Part shown: positions 34,032 to 40,795 of the stretch, piece by piece
How positions within the stretch are numbered: the stretch's first letter is position 1
Layout of the letters: the number at the start of each line of letters is the position of its first letter
Origin: Dehalococcoidia bacterium
Lineage (GTDB): Bacteria; Chloroflexota; Dehalococcoidia; SpSt-223
Assembly: GCA_025054935.1 (NCBI GenBank)
Contig: JANWZD010000012.1
Span: forward strand, 1 to 64,000
Length of the DNA: 64,000 nt
Reading direction: 5' to 3'
The notes under the pieces: model-generated
Told to the model about the DNA's origin: nothing
The model's database searches: none
What the model saw: the letters and a program-made list of their open reading frames with translations, nothing else
Made by a program: the position numbers and the translations under genes

Positions 34032-36077
34032 TTAGGCTGCCGTGCGCGCCAGTAGCTCTCTAGCGCGGGAGCGCACGCTCGGCGCCGGGTCGTGCTCGGC
34101 GAGCGCGCCGACGGCGGCGAGGAAGGGGGCGCGTGCCGCGGCTGGCCAGCGTTCGAGCACCGCGAGCGCCTTGGTGCGCGTTGTGACAGGTCCCGCAAGC
34201 GCCAAGGTGAGAAGCGGACCGCCCGCGGCCGGGAAGCGCGCCGCGATGTCGAGCGCCACAGTCAGCGCGTGGGCGATCTCCCATGGCGTCGTCTCGCCGG
34301 CCGGCTGGAGTCGGCCAGCAGCAGCGGCGACAAAGCGCGCGGCATCGTCCTCGGCGATCTGGTCGCCGAGCGCTCTCAGGAGCCCGGCGAGCTCATCCGG
34401 CTCGGCGAGAGCAAGCCAGCGGAAACATTCCTCGACGGTCGGCCGGCCGATCGCCCGCGCCGCTGTCAGCGCGTCTCGCCGCGCTGCGGGGGTTGCCGCC
34501 TCAGCGATCGCGCGCTCAGCGACTGCCGCCCAGCCCGGGTCACTCAGGCGCGACTGGACCGTCGCCAGCAGGGCGGGCCGCTGCCCCTCGTCGACAATGC
34601 CCGGCTCAGCGAGCGCGGCGCGGAACAGTTCGAGCCGCAGCAGCTGGGTCAGGTCGCGCCGTTCCGCGGTGAGGGCAAGGTAGCGTTCGAGGGTCACCGC
34701 GGCATCCTCGTACTGGGCGAGCGTACCATCCGGTCCGCCGACGACAGCATCATGCGCGAGCGCGGCGAGGAGCGCGCCGGCGCCGTCAACGATGGTCGGG
34801 TCGGGCGCGGTCGCGAGGATCTCCGCCAGCCGCGCCGCGCGGGCGATCGTAAGCGCGCTGTAGCCCTCATAGCCGGGCGCGAGACCGCTCGTCACCAGCA
34901 GCCGGCGCATCGCCGGGGTCGGCGCGCTGGCCAGCAGTTCGACGAGTTCAACCTTGGCGAGCCCCTCCAGCTGAGGCAGGAGACGGCGGCCTGCTTCGTC
35001 GAGGCTGCCCAGCGCGGTCGCGAGGCCGCTTACGGCGATCCGGGTGAACGCCGGGTCGCGAGCAAACCGCTCGAAGATCGGCACGTCCGCCGGCTGTCCA
35101 AAGAGCGTCAGCAGCGCGAGCGCGTACTTCGCCGTCCCGATATGCTCGGTCGCGACGAGCAGCGCGCGCGCCTGGTCGTAGAGCGTCTCGGCGTTCTTGC
35201 CTCGGCTCTCCGCCAGCACCGCCTCGAGCGCTTGCCGAATGGCGACGCCGCGCTCGTCGGCGGCGAAGGCGGCGTCGGCACGAAGACGAGCGGCGTCGGA
35301 GCGGTCGGTGACGAGCGCGCGGGCGGCCGAGAGGATCTGGGGCACCTCAGCGGGCGGCGCGTCCGGATCAGGCTCGGGGACGGGACGGCCGGCCAGCACC
35401 GCCGCATAGACCGAGGCCGGGTTGGCCGGCGGCGGCGGCGCGCTCGGGGCGCTCCCGCCGGTGATGCGGGCATAGCGACGCCGGACCGCCGGCCAGCGCG
35501 AGCCGGCGATGAGCAGAACGAGCGAGACGCCATGGACGACGCCGGCGGCGAGGGCAAGACCGGGCGTCGCCGGGCTGTAGAGAACGGCAAAGTCGCTGCC
35601 GGCGAGTTCGCCGAGATTGGCCAGCGTTAGGAGCGGGTAGAAGACGAGGATCTGCAGCAGCTGCAGCATGCCGAACACGAGGATGAGCTGATTGATCGCC
35701 GGGCGGATGGGCCAGCGCAGCCCGACCGCGATCGCTCCCCAGCCGAGCGTCAACGTAACGAGCGGGCCCGCCGCCGCGATCAGCCACTGCTCGCTCGGCG
35801 TCACGCGCCCGGCGTAGGCCGTGTAGCCCCAGTAGAGGAAGAAGCCGATGCCGCGCAGCTGCGCTCCCGTCAGAAGGACCGCAGCGGCATGGCCGAGCTC
35901 GTGCAGATAGACCGCCGGCGGCGTCAGGAGCAGGAACGCCGTCAGGCTAGCGAGGCTGCGCGCCCCCGGCGTCGGCTCCTCAGCCAGCAGCCCCCGCCAG
36001 CCGCGGGCAAGCTGGATCAGCGTGTAGAGCGCCGCGCCGGCATAGAGGAGCGAAAGGAGACCGAAATCCACAGCCAA
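34032..36077 (-). CDS. M50-like membrane metalloprotease with large C-terminal helical domain
   Basis: 681 residues. The N-terminal ~225 residues are hydrophobic with HELGH (HExxH) in the second helix near residues 59-63, as in site-2-type M50 proteases. The usual second motif with its Asp ligand is not obvious; the Asp in GELAGSDFAVLY is a candidate. After a Pro-rich linker, residues ~240-681 form a soluble Ala/Leu/Arg-rich helical region resembling HEAT-type repeats. The start is uncertain: TTG 36077 or GTG 36071, neither with a good ribosome site. It lies 40 bases after the substrate-binding protein of the riboswitch operon and may be its last gene. Function unknown. Confidence 0.7.
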   Translation of the reverse strand: MAVDFGLLSLLYAGAALYTLIQLARGWRGLLAEEPTPGARSLASLTAFLLLTPPAVYLHELGHAAAVLLTGAQLRGIGFFLYWGYTAYAGRVTPSEQWLIAAAGPLVTLTLGWGAIAVGLRWPIRPAINQLILVFGMLQLLQILVFYPLLTLANLGELAGSDFAVLYSPATPGLALAAGVVHGVSLVLLIAGSRWPAVRRRYARITGGSAPSAPPPPANPASVYAAVLAGRPVPEPDPDAPPAEVPQILSAARALVTDRSDAARLRADAAFAADERGVAIRQALEAVLAESRGKNAETLYDQARALLVATEHIGTAKYALALLTLFGQPADVPIFERFARDPAFTRIAVSGLATALGSLDEAGRRLLPQLEGLAKVELVELLASAPTPAMRRLLVTSGLAPGYEGYSALTIARAARLAEILATAPDPTIVDGAGALLAALAHDAVVGGPDGTLAQYEDAAVTLERYLALTAERRDLTQLLRLELFRAALAEPGIVDEGQRPALLATVQSRLSDPGWAAVAERAIAEAATPAARRDALTAARAIGRPTVEECFRWLALAEPDELAGLLRALGDQIAEDDAARFVAAAAGRLQPAGETTPWEIAHALTVALDIAARFPAAGGPLLTLALAGPVTTRTKALAVLERWPAAARAPFLAAVGALAEHDPAPSVRSRARELLARTAA

Positions 36078-36117: not shown

Positions 36118-37707
36118 TTACGACAGCTTCTCGACCGTATCGAAGGTCGGCTGGAAGTTGATGCGCTGGCGGAGCCCGCGGATCGTGCGGCGGTAGGCGT
36201 AAGGCGCTTTTTCGTGATAAAGCGCAAAGACGGGGACCTCGGTAGCAGCGATCTCCTGCAGCCGCTCATAGATCGCGAACCGGCGGCGCGGGTCGCGCTC
36301 CTGCCGTCCCGCTTCGACGAGCTGGTCGACTTCGTCATTGCGGTAGCCGCCGCGGCTCGTCGTATTCGCGCCGCCGCGCGAGTACATGAAGTTGCCCATG
36401 ATGAAATCGGGGTCGCCGTTCGCCCAGCCCAGCTGCCCGAAGCGGAGCGCCCACTCTCCCCGATTGACGACGTCGGTCAGGGCGGCGGTTTCGAGCTGCT
36501 GCAGCCGGAGGTCGATGCCGAGCGGCCGAACGACGACCTGCAGATAGGCCGCGATCTCCTTGTACGGCCGCGCCTGGCCGGCGCCATCCGTGTAGGGGAG
36601 CAGCGCCTCGACGCGGCGATCCCCGAGCGCGGCTCGGGCAAGCCGCGCCGCCTCGGCAGGATCGTAGCGGGGCGTGCCCTTCGGCGAGAACCAGCGGGCG
36701 GAAAACGGCGAAAGCAAGCTCCGTCCCGGCTCGCCGAACCCCCGCACAATCTCCTTCGTCACTTCTTCCCGGTTGAGCGCGAACGCCACCGCTTGGCGGA
36801 GCCGAACGTCATTGAATGGCGGCTGCCCGCAGTTGAAGAAGAGATACTGGGTGATCGAGATCGGGTCTGACCCGACAATGATGTCCGGCTCGTTCCGCAG
36901 CTGCTCGGCCTGTGCCGGCAGGATCGCTCCCAGTTCCACGAGCGCGTCCACCTCGCCTGCCCGCAGCGCCGAGACGCGCGTGTTCGGGTCGGGAAGGACG
37001 CGCGCTTCGATGCGGCGGACGCGGGCGCGCGGACCCCAGTAGCGGTCGTTCCGCTCCAGAATGGCAAATTGGCCGCGCTCCCACTGTTTCAGGATGAAGG
37101 GCCCGGTCGCGGCCGGGATATCGAGGAAGTCGCCGTTCGGCGCGAACGAGGCGGGCGAGAACATTGCCGAGAAGAAGTTCGACATCGTCGCCTCGAGGAG
37201 CGGATACGGCCGCTCATGGACGATCTCGAAGGTGTACTCATCGATCGGCCGGAGCTCGGCCACCGGACCGTAGGCGACCGGGGCGTTCATCGCGGTGTAG
37301 GGCGACGTTCGCGGGGAAATCTGGAAATTGCGCTCGATATTGCGGATCGCGGCGGCAGCGTTGAACGGCTGCCCGTCGGTGAAGGTGACCCCGCGTCGGA
37401 GGGTGAAGGTCCAGCGCAGGCCATCGTCCGAGAGCTGCCAGCGCTCGGCCAGCCACGGGACCGGCTCCAGCCCATCGCCAAGCCGGATCAGCGGCTCGTG
37501 GACCATCAGCGAGGTGTGCGTGAAGTAGGGGTCTTGGGGCCCATTGGCGAGGTCGCGCGACAGCCCGACCCGAAGAGTCGCCTCGAGGTCGGGCTGCGGC
37601 GCGACCGTCGCGGAGCCGGTCTCTTGGAGGCGGCACCCGACGAGGGTGCCGAGGGCGCCAAACGCAATCCCGCCCAGTACTGTCCGGCGGGAGATCGTGC
37701 GGGTCAT
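36118..37707 (-). CDS. ABC transporter substrate-binding lipoprotein, family 5 (peptide/nickel type)
   Basis: 529 residues. The N-terminus has a twin-arginine motif SRRTVLG followed by a hydrophobic stretch and the lipobox LVGC, so it is probably a Tat-exported lipoprotein that folds, perhaps with a cofactor or metal, before export. The rest is a complete SBP_bac_5 domain (YFTHTSLMVHEPLIRLGDG near the start). Family members bind peptides, nickel chelates, heme or sugars. ATG 37707 overlaps the flavin oxidoreductase stop (ATGA). As part of a cobalamin-riboswitch operon, a cobalt complex, corrinoid or corrinoid precursor is a reasonable but unproven ligand. Confidence 0.9.
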   Translation of the reverse strand: MTRTISRRTVLGGIAFGALGTLVGCRLQETGSATVAPQPDLEATLRVGLSRDLANGPQDPYFTHTSLMVHEPLIRLGDGLEPVPWLAERWQLSDDGLRWTFTLRRGVTFTDGQPFNAAAAIRNIERNFQISPRTSPYTAMNAPVAYGPVAELRPIDEYTFEIVHERPYPLLEATMSNFFSAMFSPASFAPNGDFLDIPAATGPFILKQWERGQFAILERNDRYWGPRARVRRIEARVLPDPNTRVSALRAGEVDALVELGAILPAQAEQLRNEPDIIVGSDPISITQYLFFNCGQPPFNDVRLRQAVAFALNREEVTKEIVRGFGEPGRSLLSPFSARWFSPKGTPRYDPAEAARLARAALGDRRVEALLPYTDGAGQARPYKEIAAYLQVVVRPLGIDLRLQQLETAALTDVVNRGEWALRFGQLGWANGDPDFIMGNFMYSRGGANTTSRGGYRNDEVDQLVEAGRQERDPRRRFAIYERLQEIAATEVPVFALYHEKAPYAYRRTIRGLRQRINFQPTFDTVEKLS

Positions 37708-38717
37708 CGTCTCGCTCCTTTCTTCTCCGAGCCGTTCGCGCGCCAAGCACGGAACTCCGGGTGATGCAGCACGGCCGACGCGAAGCGCTCCAAGTACATC
37801 AGGGTCTCCTCGGCGCTCAGCGCGCCGTTGCCGTTGAACACGAAGCGAAAATGGTCGGCTCCCTGCTCGGCGATCAGCTGCTCGAGTGCGCGCCGGCAGC
37901 CCGCGCCGTCGCCGATGATCGCCTGCTCGGCGCAAAACTCCGCAAAGGGGCGCTCGCGGAACGGCTGCCCGCGCTCGCGCGCCAAGGCGCGCCGGCGGTC
38001 TTGGACCGCCTGCCAGAGCCGGACCGCGAGGTCCTTCGCTTCCGCCGGTGTCCGCCCGATGCAGACATAGCGGCTGAAGGAGACGCGCCGCGGCCCCTCC
38101 ACGCCGAGCGCTTGCCGCGCCTTCTCGAGGAGCGCAAGCTGCCGCTGCTCTGGCGGCTCGAGGCTGAGGAGAAGCCGGTAGCCGCGGGCCGCCGCAAATG
38201 CGATCGTTTCGTAGGAGGCGCCCGCGACGAAGATCGGCAGCGGCTGGGCCGGCCGCAGGGTCACGGGCAGGTCGGCGAAGCGCCAGCAGGCGCCCTCGGC
38301 GCTGACGGCGGGCGAGCTCCACGCCTTGAGCAGGAGGTCATGCGCCTCGAAAAAGGCGGCGCGGCGCAGGTCGTCCGGAACGGCGCGGCTCAGGCCGGGG
38401 CTGGAGCCGCGGCCGATCCCGACATCGAGCCGGCCGCTCCCAAGCTCGTCCAACTGGGCCAGCGCTTCGGCAAGGAGGACAGGGTGATACAGCGGCAGGA
38501 CGACGACCGAAAGCCCGACCCGGATCGTGCTTGTCCGCGCCAGGGAGGCAGCGGCAAGCAGCAGGGCAGAGGGCGCGCCGCTGAGCCCCTCCGAAAAGTG
38601 CTGCTCATTGAACCAGACCGAATCGAATCCCAGCTGCTCTGCTGCCTGCACCAGCGACAGCAGCGGCTCAGGATGGCGGATGCCGCGCTGCAGTCCCGCG
38701 ACCCCGAGATGCACCAT
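37704..38717 (-). CDS. LLM-class (luciferase-like) flavin-dependent oxidoreductase
   Basis: 337-residue TIM-barrel protein of the bacterial luciferase superfamily (FMN- or F420-dependent). Typical segments: VWFNEQHF near the N-terminus, DVGIGRGSSPGLSRA, and a C-terminal region matching the luciferase-like domain. The family includes monooxygenases that attack chelators, sulfonates and amines. It lies between permease and binding-protein genes, overlapping by 1 base upstream and 4 downstream, so it is made in step with the transporter and probably acts on the imported compound. Under cobalamin-riboswitch control, a role in processing a corrinoid or cobalt ligand is inferred. Confidence 0.9.
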   Translation of the reverse strand: MVHLGVAGLQRGIRHPEPLLSLVQAAEQLGFDSVWFNEQHFSEGLSGAPSALLLAAASLARTSTIRVGLSVVVLPLYHPVLLAEALAQLDELGSGRLDVGIGRGSSPGLSRAVPDDLRRAAFFEAHDLLLKAWSSPAVSAEGACWRFADLPVTLRPAQPLPIFVAGASYETIAFAAARGYRLLLSLEPPEQRQLALLEKARQALGVEGPRRVSFSRYVCIGRTPAEAKDLAVRLWQAVQDRRRALARERGQPFRERPFAEFCAEQAIIGDGAGCRRALEQLIAEQGADHFRFVFNGNGALSAEETLMYLERFASAVLHHPEFRAWRANGSEKKGARR

Positions 38718-39562
38718 CAGTGCGTCCTCCACCGCGGGTCGAGCCGGTCCTGAATGGCATCGCCGACAAGATTGGCGAGGACGGCAAAGCCGACAATGCA
38801 CACTCCCGGAGCGAGCATCAGCCACGGCGCGGCGCCGAGGTAGGCGCGGCTCTCCGCAAGCATCGTCCCCCAGTCTGCCGAGGGCGGCTGCGTTCCAAGC
38901 CCCAGAAAGCTCAGCGCCGAAACAGTGAGCAGCGCTTGGCCGAGGTTGAGACTGGCGAGCACAACAACGGTCGGCACTGTTGCCGGCAGCAGATGGTGGC
39001 GCGCGATCCGCCATGGGGTCGCCCCGATTGCGGTGGCCGCCTCGATGAACTGGCTGGCGCGGACGCTCGCTGTCACGCTGCGGACGATCCGTGCTTCTTC
39101 GGCCCAGCCTGCGCCGATCAGGGCGATGACGACGGCAAGCCGCCCCGTTCCGAGCGTGCCGAGGATCGCCAAGGCGACGAGAAGGCCCGGCAACGCCAGC
39201 AGCATGTCCAACAGCGCGCAGACGAAACGATCGACCGCGCCGCCGCGCGCCCCGGCGAGTATCCCGACCGCAGCGGCAAGCGCCATCGAGCCGCTGACGG
39301 CGAGCAGCGCCGTCAGCAGGGCCGCCTGCCCGCCGTGGAGGAGACGGCTGAGGACATCGCGGCCGAGCTGGTCGGTGCCGAGCAGCGCCTCCGGCCCCGG
39401 CGGGAGAAGCCGGCGGCCGAGCGCGATCTCGTTGGGGTCGGCGGGCGCAAGCGCGGGCGCAAGGAGCATGAGTGTCAGGCTGGCCCCAAACAGGAGGACG
39501 GGCGCCCACGCGCGCGTGGCGCGCACGGCGCGCGCGCGAAGGAGAGGAGGAGCGACGGTCAT
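38717..39562 (-). CDS. Peptide/nickel-type ABC transporter permease, DppC family
   Basis: 281 residues with six predicted helices. DppC hallmarks: LLGTDQLGRDVLSRLLHG in the first loop and the EAA region EAATAIGATPWRIARHHLLP. It pairs with the DppB-type permease upstream to form the channel; its ATG overlaps that gene's stop (ATGA). The longer open frame upstream belongs to the partner gene in another frame. No DppD/DppF ATPases are encoded in this operon. Confidence 0.92.
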   Translation of the reverse strand: MTVAPPLLRARAVRATRAWAPVLLFGASLTLMLLAPALAPADPNEIALGRRLLPPGPEALLGTDQLGRDVLSRLLHGGQAALLTALLAVSGSMALAAAVGILAGARGGAVDRFVCALLDMLLALPGLLVALAILGTLGTGRLAVVIALIGAGWAEEARIVRSVTASVRASQFIEAATAIGATPWRIARHHLLPATVPTVVVLASLNLGQALLTVSALSFLGLGTQPPSADWGTMLAESRAYLGAAPWLMLAPGVCIVGFAVLANLVGDAIQDRLDPRWRTH

Positions 39563-40506
39563 CGCGCCCTCCATCCGCCGAGCGCGACCCGCGGGTCGAC
39601 CACGCTCGTCACCACGTCTGTCACGAAGTTCGCCGCGATCACCATCGAGCCGGTGAGGAGGACATAGCCCGCGATCACGGGCACATCGCGGCCCGAGATG
39701 GCCGTAATCACCGCTGTCGCCATGCCCGGCCAAGCGAAAATCGTCTCGACGATGACCGTGCCGGCGAGGATATTGCCGAACCGGACGCCGACAGAGGCGA
39801 TCAGCGGCGCGGCGGCGGCGCGCAGGACATGCTGGATGGCGACCGTCCGTTCGGGGAGCCCCTTGGCGCGCGCGGTCCGCACGAAGTCTTCGGCCAGCAC
39901 GCTCCGGACCGCGGAGCGCGTTAGGCGGAGCGTTGCGGCAGCAGGGACGACCGACAGCGCCGCCACGGGGAGGATGAAATGCTGCCACGCGCCGTACCCG
40001 GCGACCGGCAGCAGACGCAGGCGCTCGGCGACGACAACACTCAGCCCGATCGCCAGCAGGAAGGACGGCAGCCCGGCGGCAAGAACGATCGCGCCGCGCA
40101 CGCCGAGGTCGACCGTCGCCGACCTGCTGAAAGTGACGGCGAGCCCAAGGCCGAGGCCGACGACCGTCGAGACGACCAGCGTCGCGAGGCCGAGTTGAAC
40201 CGTCGGCCAGATCCGCTCGCCGAGGATGGCCAGCACCGGCCGGCGGCTCAGGATCGACCGGCCGAGGTCGCCCTGGATGACCCGCCCGAGCCAACGGACA
40301 TATTGAACGGGAAGCGGCGCGTCAAGCCCGAGCTGCCGCCGATACTCGGCCAGCAGCTCCGGGGTCGGTGTCTGACCGTCCTGCTCGAGCGCGATCAGGG
40401 CGGGGTCGCCCCGCGCAGCGCTCACCAGCAGGAAGGCGGTGATGGTAATGACGAAGAGAGTAGTGAGAGCGAATATCGCTCGCTGCGCGAGATACCGAAT
40501 GGCCAT
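39559..40506 (-). CDS. Peptide/nickel-type ABC transporter permease, DppB family
   Basis: 315 residues, six predicted helices, beginning MAIRYLAQRAIFALTTLFVI. The EAA-type region is in VRTARAKGLPERTVAIQHVL and the family signature GTVIVETIFAWPGM is present. ATG 40506 is chosen over in-frame upstream codons, which lie within the riboswitch expression platform. The ribosome site is weak (GGGATGG, 8 bases away), consistent with translation or transcription control by the riboswitch. First gene of the operon. Confidence 0.92.
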   Translation of the reverse strand: MAIRYLAQRAIFALTTLFVITITAFLLVSAARGDPALIALEQDGQTPTPELLAEYRRQLGLDAPLPVQYVRWLGRVIQGDLGRSILSRRPVLAILGERIWPTVQLGLATLVVSTVVGLGLGLAVTFSRSATVDLGVRGAIVLAAGLPSFLLAIGLSVVVAERLRLLPVAGYGAWQHFILPVAALSVVPAAATLRLTRSAVRSVLAEDFVRTARAKGLPERTVAIQHVLRAAAAPLIASVGVRFGNILAGTVIVETIFAWPGMATAVITAISGRDVPVIAGYVLLTGSMVIAANFVTDVVTSVVDPRVALGGWRAR

Positions 40507-40548
40507 CACTGGCCATCCCGCGCGGGGCCCGCCAAGCACGCGCCGACG

Positions 40549-40607
40549 GGGGGACAGGTGCTGCCCATCGCTGGTCCCCCAGAAGCAGAATCGCTCGCCG
40601 TGGGACC
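40549..40607 (-). promoter_or_regulatory. Expression platform of the cobalamin riboswitch
   Basis: Two mutually exclusive hairpins can form on the minus strand: GGTCCC (40607-40602) with GGGACC (40578-40573), or GGGGGAC (40580-40574) with GTCCCCC (40555-40549). They share 40578-40574. No U-tract follows, so control may be at translation or via Rho; which state is ON cannot be decided from sequence. Confidence 0.45.
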
Positions 40608-40642
40608 TCCCGACCGCCGCGCTGCTCGGCACAGGGTCAGGT

Positions 40643-40753
40643 CGAGTGGGCGAGGCGACCGGACTCCAGCCTCACGGGCTGATTACCGTTGCGGCACAGT
40701 GCCGGAATTGCACCGGACTTCGCTCGCTGCCCCTCTCAGGGCAATCCCACCCG
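40643..40753 (-). promoter_or_regulatory. Cobalamin riboswitch aptamer
   Basis: Minus-strand RNA with the conserved core of cobalamin riboswitches: GGTGCAATTCCGGCACTG, then GCCGCAACGG (40695-40686) and GTAATC, and the B12-box-like GAGTCCGGTCGCCT (40666-40653). P1 closes the element: CGGGTGGG (40753-40746) with CCCACTCG (40650-40643), 8 bp with one G-U. It begins ~6 bases after the predicted transcription start and lies 137 bases before the DppB-type permease. By family rule, adenosyl- or methylcobalamin binding turns the operon down, so the operon is expressed when B12 is scarce. Confidence 0.93.
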
Positions 40754-40765
40754 AGCGTGGGCAGG

Positions 40766-40795
40766 ACTGTAGCAGGGAGGATGTCGGCAGATCAA
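40766..40795 (-). promoter_or_regulatory. Promoter of the cobalamin-riboswitch operon
   Basis: On the minus strand TTGATC (40795-40790), an 18-base spacer and TACAGT (40771-40766). The predicted start near 40759 is just upstream of aptamer P1. Between here and the nuoN stop (40796-41027) no gene or U-tract terminator was seen. Confidence 0.75.

Follow-up and report, generated by a model that had tools for sequence, protein, structure and literature searches.

What does a bacterium import when vitamin B12 runs short, and why should an oxygenase be encoded with the importer? The question is raised by a 64,000-nucleotide stretch of DNA from a Dehalococcoidia bacterium (contig JANWZD010000012.1, positions 1 to 64,000; hereafter the window), where a cobalamin riboswitch precedes an operon for two ATP-binding cassette (ABC) permeases, a luciferase-like flavin oxidoreductase (LLM) and a solute-binding lipoprotein (SBP). 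The answer proposed here, to which we give about an even chance, is that the operon is a metal-chelate importer, serving cobalt under B12 control and, in related cassettes, zinc under Zur control, whose FMN (flavin mononucleotide)-type oxygenase breaks the chelator in the manner of EppABCD/EmoA. The evidence comes mostly from a comparison across phyla: what recurs behind B12 switches is the LLM clade together with some chelate-type importer, not the window's four genes. The features of the window are the following:

40608–40746 (−): adenosylcobalamin (AdoCbl)/cobalamin riboswitch aptamer (RF01482 and RF00174 matches; kept in the congener KatS3mg060, G003)
40746–40753 (−): 5′ arm of the P1 stem, 8 bp, CGGGUGGG (sequence and minimum-energy fold)
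40643–40650 (−): 3′ arm of the P1 stem, CCCACUCG (sequence and minimum-energy fold)
39559–40506 (−): DppB/NikB-type ABC permease (PF00528 and PF19300; Opp2B 275 bits, cut-off 350; NikB 253, cut-off 447)
38717–39562 (−): DppC/NikC-type ABC permease (PF00528; Opp2C 255 bits, cut-off 300; NikC 248, cut-off 358)
37704–38717 (−): LLM of the riboswitch/Zur-associated clade (PF00296, 166 bits; tree; AlphaFold2 model)
36118–37707 (−): family-5 (NikA/DppA-like) SBP with a twin-arginine translocation (Tat) signal (PF00496, 261 bits)
34032–36077 (−): M50-type peptidase/repeat protein, possibly the last gene of the operon (PF13398, 35 bits)

The aptamer, which a sequence-only reading had found convincing with its 8-bp P1, is confirmed as a cobalamin riboswitch by a significant full-length match, its leader position and its conservation in KatS3mg060. 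In a search of 401 bases, the AdoCbl model RF01482 aligned completely (model 1–149) with 40608–40746 (−), at 44.6 bits and an E-value of 3.8e-7, while RF00174 matched 40636–40765 with 31.4 bits and a genome-wide E-value of 4.7e-6 (3.57 Mb genome). The covariance-model search proposed in that reading thus returned a significant match, but one that narrowly misses both curated Rfam cut-offs (a gathering score of 50 for RF01482 and 31.5 for RF00174), which is why a scan of the window at the gathering threshold reports tRNA only and no riboswitch, the aptamer appearing in E-value mode. In the minimum-energy fold (folding z-score −3.0), 40746–40753 pair with 40643–40650 to form P1. The aptamer of KatS3mg060 scores 34.0 bits upstream of the same operon, and between the two genomes the aptamer and the operon are conserved, whereas the flanking non-coding sequence has diverged. 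Covariation over six aptamers of the lineage was poor, as the automatic alignment misplaced helices, and is not used as evidence; a mir-8791 match on the leader was dismissed as chance. Between the aptamer and dppB, a short out-of-frame reading frame (about 40490–40560) ends in TGATG over the dppB start and could couple translation, but its stop is absent in KatS3mg060.

Only four RF00174 matches, including that of the window, occur in the whole 3.57 Mb host genome. The other three lie upstream of btuF-methyltransferase-cobN, cobT-cobS-btuC-btuD and cobT. The CobN of the first of these operons (contig C5, L031 6276–12336) has 1421 residues and a Cys-rich N-terminal extension.

The first gene of the operon starts about 100 bases past the aptamer, and each later start overlaps the preceding stop (ATGA, TGATG and ATGA), bearing out the claim that uptake is coupled to the LLM enzyme. 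No btu, cbt or cob gene is present in the operon, also as first described, and its reading frames hold no ATPase gene; two intact oligo_HPY ATPase pairs are encoded elsewhere in the host genome (contigs C4 and C1). The SBP begins with SRRTVLGG...LVGC, a Tat/lipobox N-terminus, and its best equivalog model is NikA, at 186 bits against a cut-off of 393. The LLM is a luciferase-like monooxygenase by its PF00296 match (166 bits) and the TIM-barrel fold of its AlphaFold2 model (pLDDT, the predicted local distance difference test score, 88.8). The structures nearest to this model are those of RslO1, bacterial luciferase and other FMN monooxygenases, with F420 enzymes ranking behind them. About 40 bp behind the SBP follows the M50-type gene, found in the same place in KatS3mg060 with 73% identity; its product has a long, repeat-like C-terminal part.

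Within the Chloroflexota, the whole arrangement was seen only in this genus. Class- and phylum-wide searches yielded one ortholog and one 42% relative. The ortholog is the congener Dehalococcoidia bacterium KatS3mg060, with the whole operon in the same order at 70–81% identity, the aptamer, and the M50-type gene behind. The relative (G352) holds the order SBP-DppB-DppC-LLM with no riboswitch nearby, so that a Dpp/Nik-type importer with a riboswitch has been seen only in the window's genus. In KatS3mg060, the riboswitch has another LLM gene, unrelated to the first, close upstream (L030 5591–6490); the window has none there.

Beyond the phylum, the LLM is found in other company. A first survey scanned a collection of genomes with an alignment of three LLMs and peptide patterns and returned full-length relatives at the 37–48% level, mostly from Alpha- and Betaproteobacteria. 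Most of them lie in operons behind strong cobalamin riboswitches (79–135 bits), the carriers being Nitratireductor (four), Aminobacter, Roseinatronobacter, Variovorax (two), Pseudorhodobacter, Devosia, Oryzicola and three metagenome-assembled genomes (MAGs). To avoid the bias of such patterns, genomes were also searched whole. In these searches, the LLM proved to be rare (2 of 385 Alphaproteobacteria, and 6 of 258 and 5 of 201 genomes in two families), and all five new loci have a riboswitch 3–6 kb upstream on the same strand, for which we calculate a chance of about 1e-13 at 2–7 riboswitches per 3–6 Mb genome. Two plasmid loci, from Variovorax paradoxus and Ponticoccus, also have a riboswitch; the LLM of the latter lies outside the riboswitch operon, in convergent orientation to it. 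The riboswitch is therefore present in 7/7 of the loci that came from whole-genome or plasmid protein searches, free of peptide-pattern bias.

Altogether, the combination of LLM, importer operon and preceding cobalamin riboswitch is found at 23 loci, distributed over Chloroflexota and Alpha-, Beta- and Gammaproteobacteria (the last with one MAG), while six more distant LLM loci have no riboswitch. In the tree, the riboswitch-linked LLMs, the pair formed by the window and KatS3mg060, the Martelella/L054 type and four unclassified rows split from other LLMs with a Shimodaira–Hasegawa-like approximate likelihood ratio test (SH-aLRT) support of 99. The open-access literature gave nothing relevant on LLM enzymes in a cobalamin-riboswitch context, which is weak evidence. 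To the question of the sequence-only reading, whether the same four genes follow B12 riboswitches in other genomes, the answer is that the LLM clade does recur there, in other phyla too, with some chelate-type importer but not with the same one.

In proteobacteria, this importer consists of a PF01497 SBP, a FecCD permease and an ATPase, placed before or after the LLM. Cassettes of the Burkholderiales type begin with a TonB receptor, which in Variovorax is best matched by a siderophore-receptor model (154 bits) and reaches 119 bits with the B12 receptor BtuB, against a cut-off of 600. Likewise, the SBPs of the sister cassettes score 32–46 bits with BtuF (cut-off 234). The Ponticoccus cassette also has a FhuF-like reductase; cobW-cobN lies near the cassette L058, behind a second riboswitch; cobN directly follows the LLM in G1434; and a CbiX-ferredoxin fusion is found among the neighbours of L051. 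DUF1636 proteins, possibly a metal-handling family, occur beside LLM cassettes or cobW-cobN (L054 7433–7894 and L058 6765–7217). On the Ponticoccus plasmid p-SCP4 (L155 13037–13799), two divergent cobalamin riboswitches precede the importer cassette and nrdHIEF, and another riboswitch operon of Variovorax (G650, L137) comprises a TonB receptor, a PepSY membrane protein, CobW and CobN.

The metal nature of the substrate is suggested by a change of regulator. Two Martelella cassettes (L042 and L044) have no riboswitch, L042 being covered by only about 480 bases of upstream sequence, and carry GATATGTTATTACATTAC upstream of the LLM. Its reverse complement matches the Agrobacterium-group Zur box cited in PMC2706843, GTAATGTAATAACATTAC, at all but 2 of 18 positions. 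The motif also occurs between adjacent divergent COG0523 genes in Martelella, and in a control with 2 Mb of simulated sequence no site came within three mismatches of the Agrobacterium-group box. By this box match, both cassettes are putative members of the Zur regulon. Between the riboswitch and the LLM start of Nitratireductor L038 and L039 stands a box that has two mismatches to the Rhodobacter-group consensus (0/300 shuffles) and is conserved where neighbouring bases have diverged; these two leaders carry both a riboswitch and a putative Zur box. L054 is divergent from zur-COG0523 and has a weaker box, with five mismatches. The remaining riboswitch leaders have no Zur box beyond chance, except for a weak one in L051. 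With one branch following zinc status and another B12, the simplest explanation of the cassette is an importer of chelated metal.

On this basis, the following mechanism is proposed for the window. Riboswitch repression upon adenosylcobalamin binding is well established, and here the cofactor would bind the leader aptamer and switch the operon off. As the cofactor runs low, a metal chelate, most likely that of cobalt with a metallophore, would be captured by the NikA/DppA-like lipoprotein and imported by the two permeases, powered by an ATPase pair encoded elsewhere. In the cytoplasm, the LLM would oxidise the organic chelator with reduced flavin and O2 and free the metal, as EDTA (ethylenediaminetetraacetate) monooxygenase does after EDTA import, and the freed cobalt may go to the host's own CobN chelatase, which is also under riboswitch control. 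In sister cassettes, the importer would be of the FecCD type, and control would lie with a B12 riboswitch, with Zur or with both, depending on the metal needed. The aptamer match, the operon, the cross-phylum association, the Zur-box match and the gene content are computed; the substrate, the chemistry, the borrowed ATPase and the repression are what the proposal adds to them. A more far-reaching version, tentative and somewhat more apt to be wrong than right, would see a dedicated, transferable 'cobaltophore' uptake system with oxidative release and an undescribed LLM family that destroys metallophores, in which a Zur box takes the place of the riboswitch depending on the metal, and the importer is of the FecCD type in proteobacteria and of the Dpp/Nik type in Chloroflexota.

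The closest precedent in arrangement is the EDTA system of Chelativorans BNC1, EppABCD/EmoAB, with EppA as a NikA/DppA/OppA-like SBP and EmoA as the monooxygenase (PMC7312458). There, too, a NikA/DppA-class SBP and a type I importer are encoded with an FMNH2-dependent (reduced FMN) monooxygenase acting on the imported chelator. However, that system is catabolic, is not known to be under B12 control, has its ATPase, EppD, in the operon, and takes up metal-free EDTA. EmoA belongs to another LLM subfamily than the window LLM and is not among its 50 best structural matches, so that the likeness is one of arrangement and not of membership. In control, a precedent is provided by Clostridium tetani and Desulfitobacterium, whose nikABCDE genes follow B12 riboswitches and have been interpreted as taking up cobalt (PMC2667541). 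These operons share with the window a Nik-type ABC importer behind a cobalamin riboswitch, but have two ATPases of their own and no reported LLM. NikABCDE in general has the dedicated ATPases NikD and NikE, unlike the window operon, whose proteins miss the NikA, NikB and NikC cut-offs (186/393, 253/447 and 248/358 bits).

Other systems are similar in single parts. CntABCDF (staphylopine/pseudopaline) imports Ni, Co and Zn chelates with a Cluster-C SBP and NikBC-like permeases, but the CntA and CntC models (NF047575 and NF047573) stay far under their cut-offs in the window (133/800 and 197/440 bits), and we know of no LLM or riboswitch in that system. BtuBFCD shares the cobalamin-riboswitch control and, with the proteobacterial sister cassettes, the FecCD-type importer; nevertheless, the window importer is of another ABC type, and the sister cassettes miss the BtuF and BtuB cut-offs. 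Finally, TIGR04027 and TIGR04028 (the LLM KPN_01858 and the SBP KPN_01854) are both matched in the window operon, by its LLM and its family-5 SBP, with scores (82/413 and 98/469 bits) that make the window proteins relatives, not members.

Several observations weigh against a cobalt-chelate importer. The corrin-ring enzymes CbiC and CobI/CbiL are absent in a number of carriers, among them the host, Nitratireductor pb3 and both Variovorax genomes. Corrin-ring synthesis is thus not to be expected in the host and several other carriers, which is why supplying cobalt for de novo B12 synthesis was discarded as the only function. CobN is encoded by the host (1240 bits) and by several ring-less carriers (most of them, fragmentary MAGs and Martelella set aside), so that cobalt would still have a use where corrinoids are salvaged in metal-free form; only in that case would these carriers need it. 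CobN without ring synthesis is also seen in Variovorax and G1434, where it perhaps inserts cobalt into such corrinoids. Nitratireductor pb3 has neither CobN nor ring genes and yet keeps the riboswitch (and a Zur box); the Zur-only Martelella lacks CobN and ring genes as well. Moreover, the SBP is below all NikA and CntA cut-offs, and the position of the NikA ligand-binding Arg137 is non-Arg in a pairwise alignment that is loose in this stretch; an assignment of the SBP by NikA ligand residues gained no support. For the LLM, the 25 best of 30 NCBIfam matches do not include the EmoA/NtaA subfamily model, the operon was found to contain neither a flavin reductase gene nor a chelator gene, and the window leader has no Zur box.

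The main rival is a second corrinoid importer, which would take up corrinoids badly handled by Btu and process them with the LLM and reduced flavin, for instance by a CblC-like removal of the upper ligand. Neither the host nor several carriers can make the ring, the cassette of pb3 is still behind a riboswitch without ring genes or CobN, and FecCD/PF01497 importers include BtuCD/BtuF. The TonB receptors of Variovorax have a match to the B12 receptor model as well, and B12 transporters are a classical riboswitch target; cobalamin regulons, as described, cover the synthesis and transport of B12, the transport of cobalt, and replacement isozymes (PMC3766115). However, the Zur boxes point to a metal, the SBPs and the TonB receptor lie far under the BtuF and BtuB cut-offs, and no corrinoid-processing LLM was found in the literature searched. 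In addition, Nitratireductor pb3 and Variovorax have separate riboswitch-controlled BtuB-type operons, so that the cassette is not their sole corrinoid route. Taken together, the facts on ring genes, CobN and these operons favour a metal chelate, and a corrinoid importer appears rather unlikely. A small lower-ligand precursor of the benzimidazole type, imported and oxidatively tailored for CobT, seems very improbable: lower-ligand supply by flavin/O2 chemistry has an example in BluB, and the host has two riboswitch-controlled cobT genes, but the TonB receptors of sister cassettes are needed for large ligands, Zur control is not accounted for, and a bluB-like gene is found in another Variovorax riboswitch operon. 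Among the three substrates first offered, then, the cobalt chelate is the best supported, owing to the Zur boxes on sister cassettes, the FhuF-like reductase in one of them and the siderophore-type TonB receptor of Variovorax; a corrinoid keeps some probability because the host lacks corrin-ring synthesis, and a lower-ligand precursor fits poorly with TonB receptors.

Two further explanations dispense with cobalt and corrinoids altogether. The operon might take up and oxidise a nutrient that replaces a B12-dependent step, such as a source of methionine or organosulfur, given that several LLM enzymes act on organosulfur compounds, that nrdHIEF, with its own riboswitch, is divergent from the Ponticoccus cassette, and that B12-independent isozymes are a known riboswitch class (PMC3766115). 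Such a bypass is improbable, as the TonB receptor, FecCD permease and FhuF-like reductase are parts of chelate import, cobN and cobW stand beside some cassettes, and Zur control would be left unexplained. An ordinary peptide importer that captured an LLM by chance behind a decayed riboswitch would agree with an aptamer just under the curated cut-offs, a Dpp-type version in only two genomes of one genus and an operon without ATPase; we consider it quite unlikely, in view of the conservation of aptamer and operon in KatS3mg060 amid diverged flanking non-coding sequence and of the riboswitch linkage of the LLM clade in distant phyla.

The acquisition of cobalt from chelates by bacteria is poorly known. 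A rare oxygenase that tracks B12 riboswitches across phyla, and Zur in close relatives, is a candidate for the oxidative release of metal from a metallophore, and its carriers include the cultured genera Nitratireductor, Aminobacter, Devosia, Variovorax and Martelella. If the substrate were a corrinoid instead, the LLM would be a new corrinoid-processing enzyme. As it stands, the cross-phylum pattern suggests that chelated cobalt or zinc may be imported and opened up by a route not described before.

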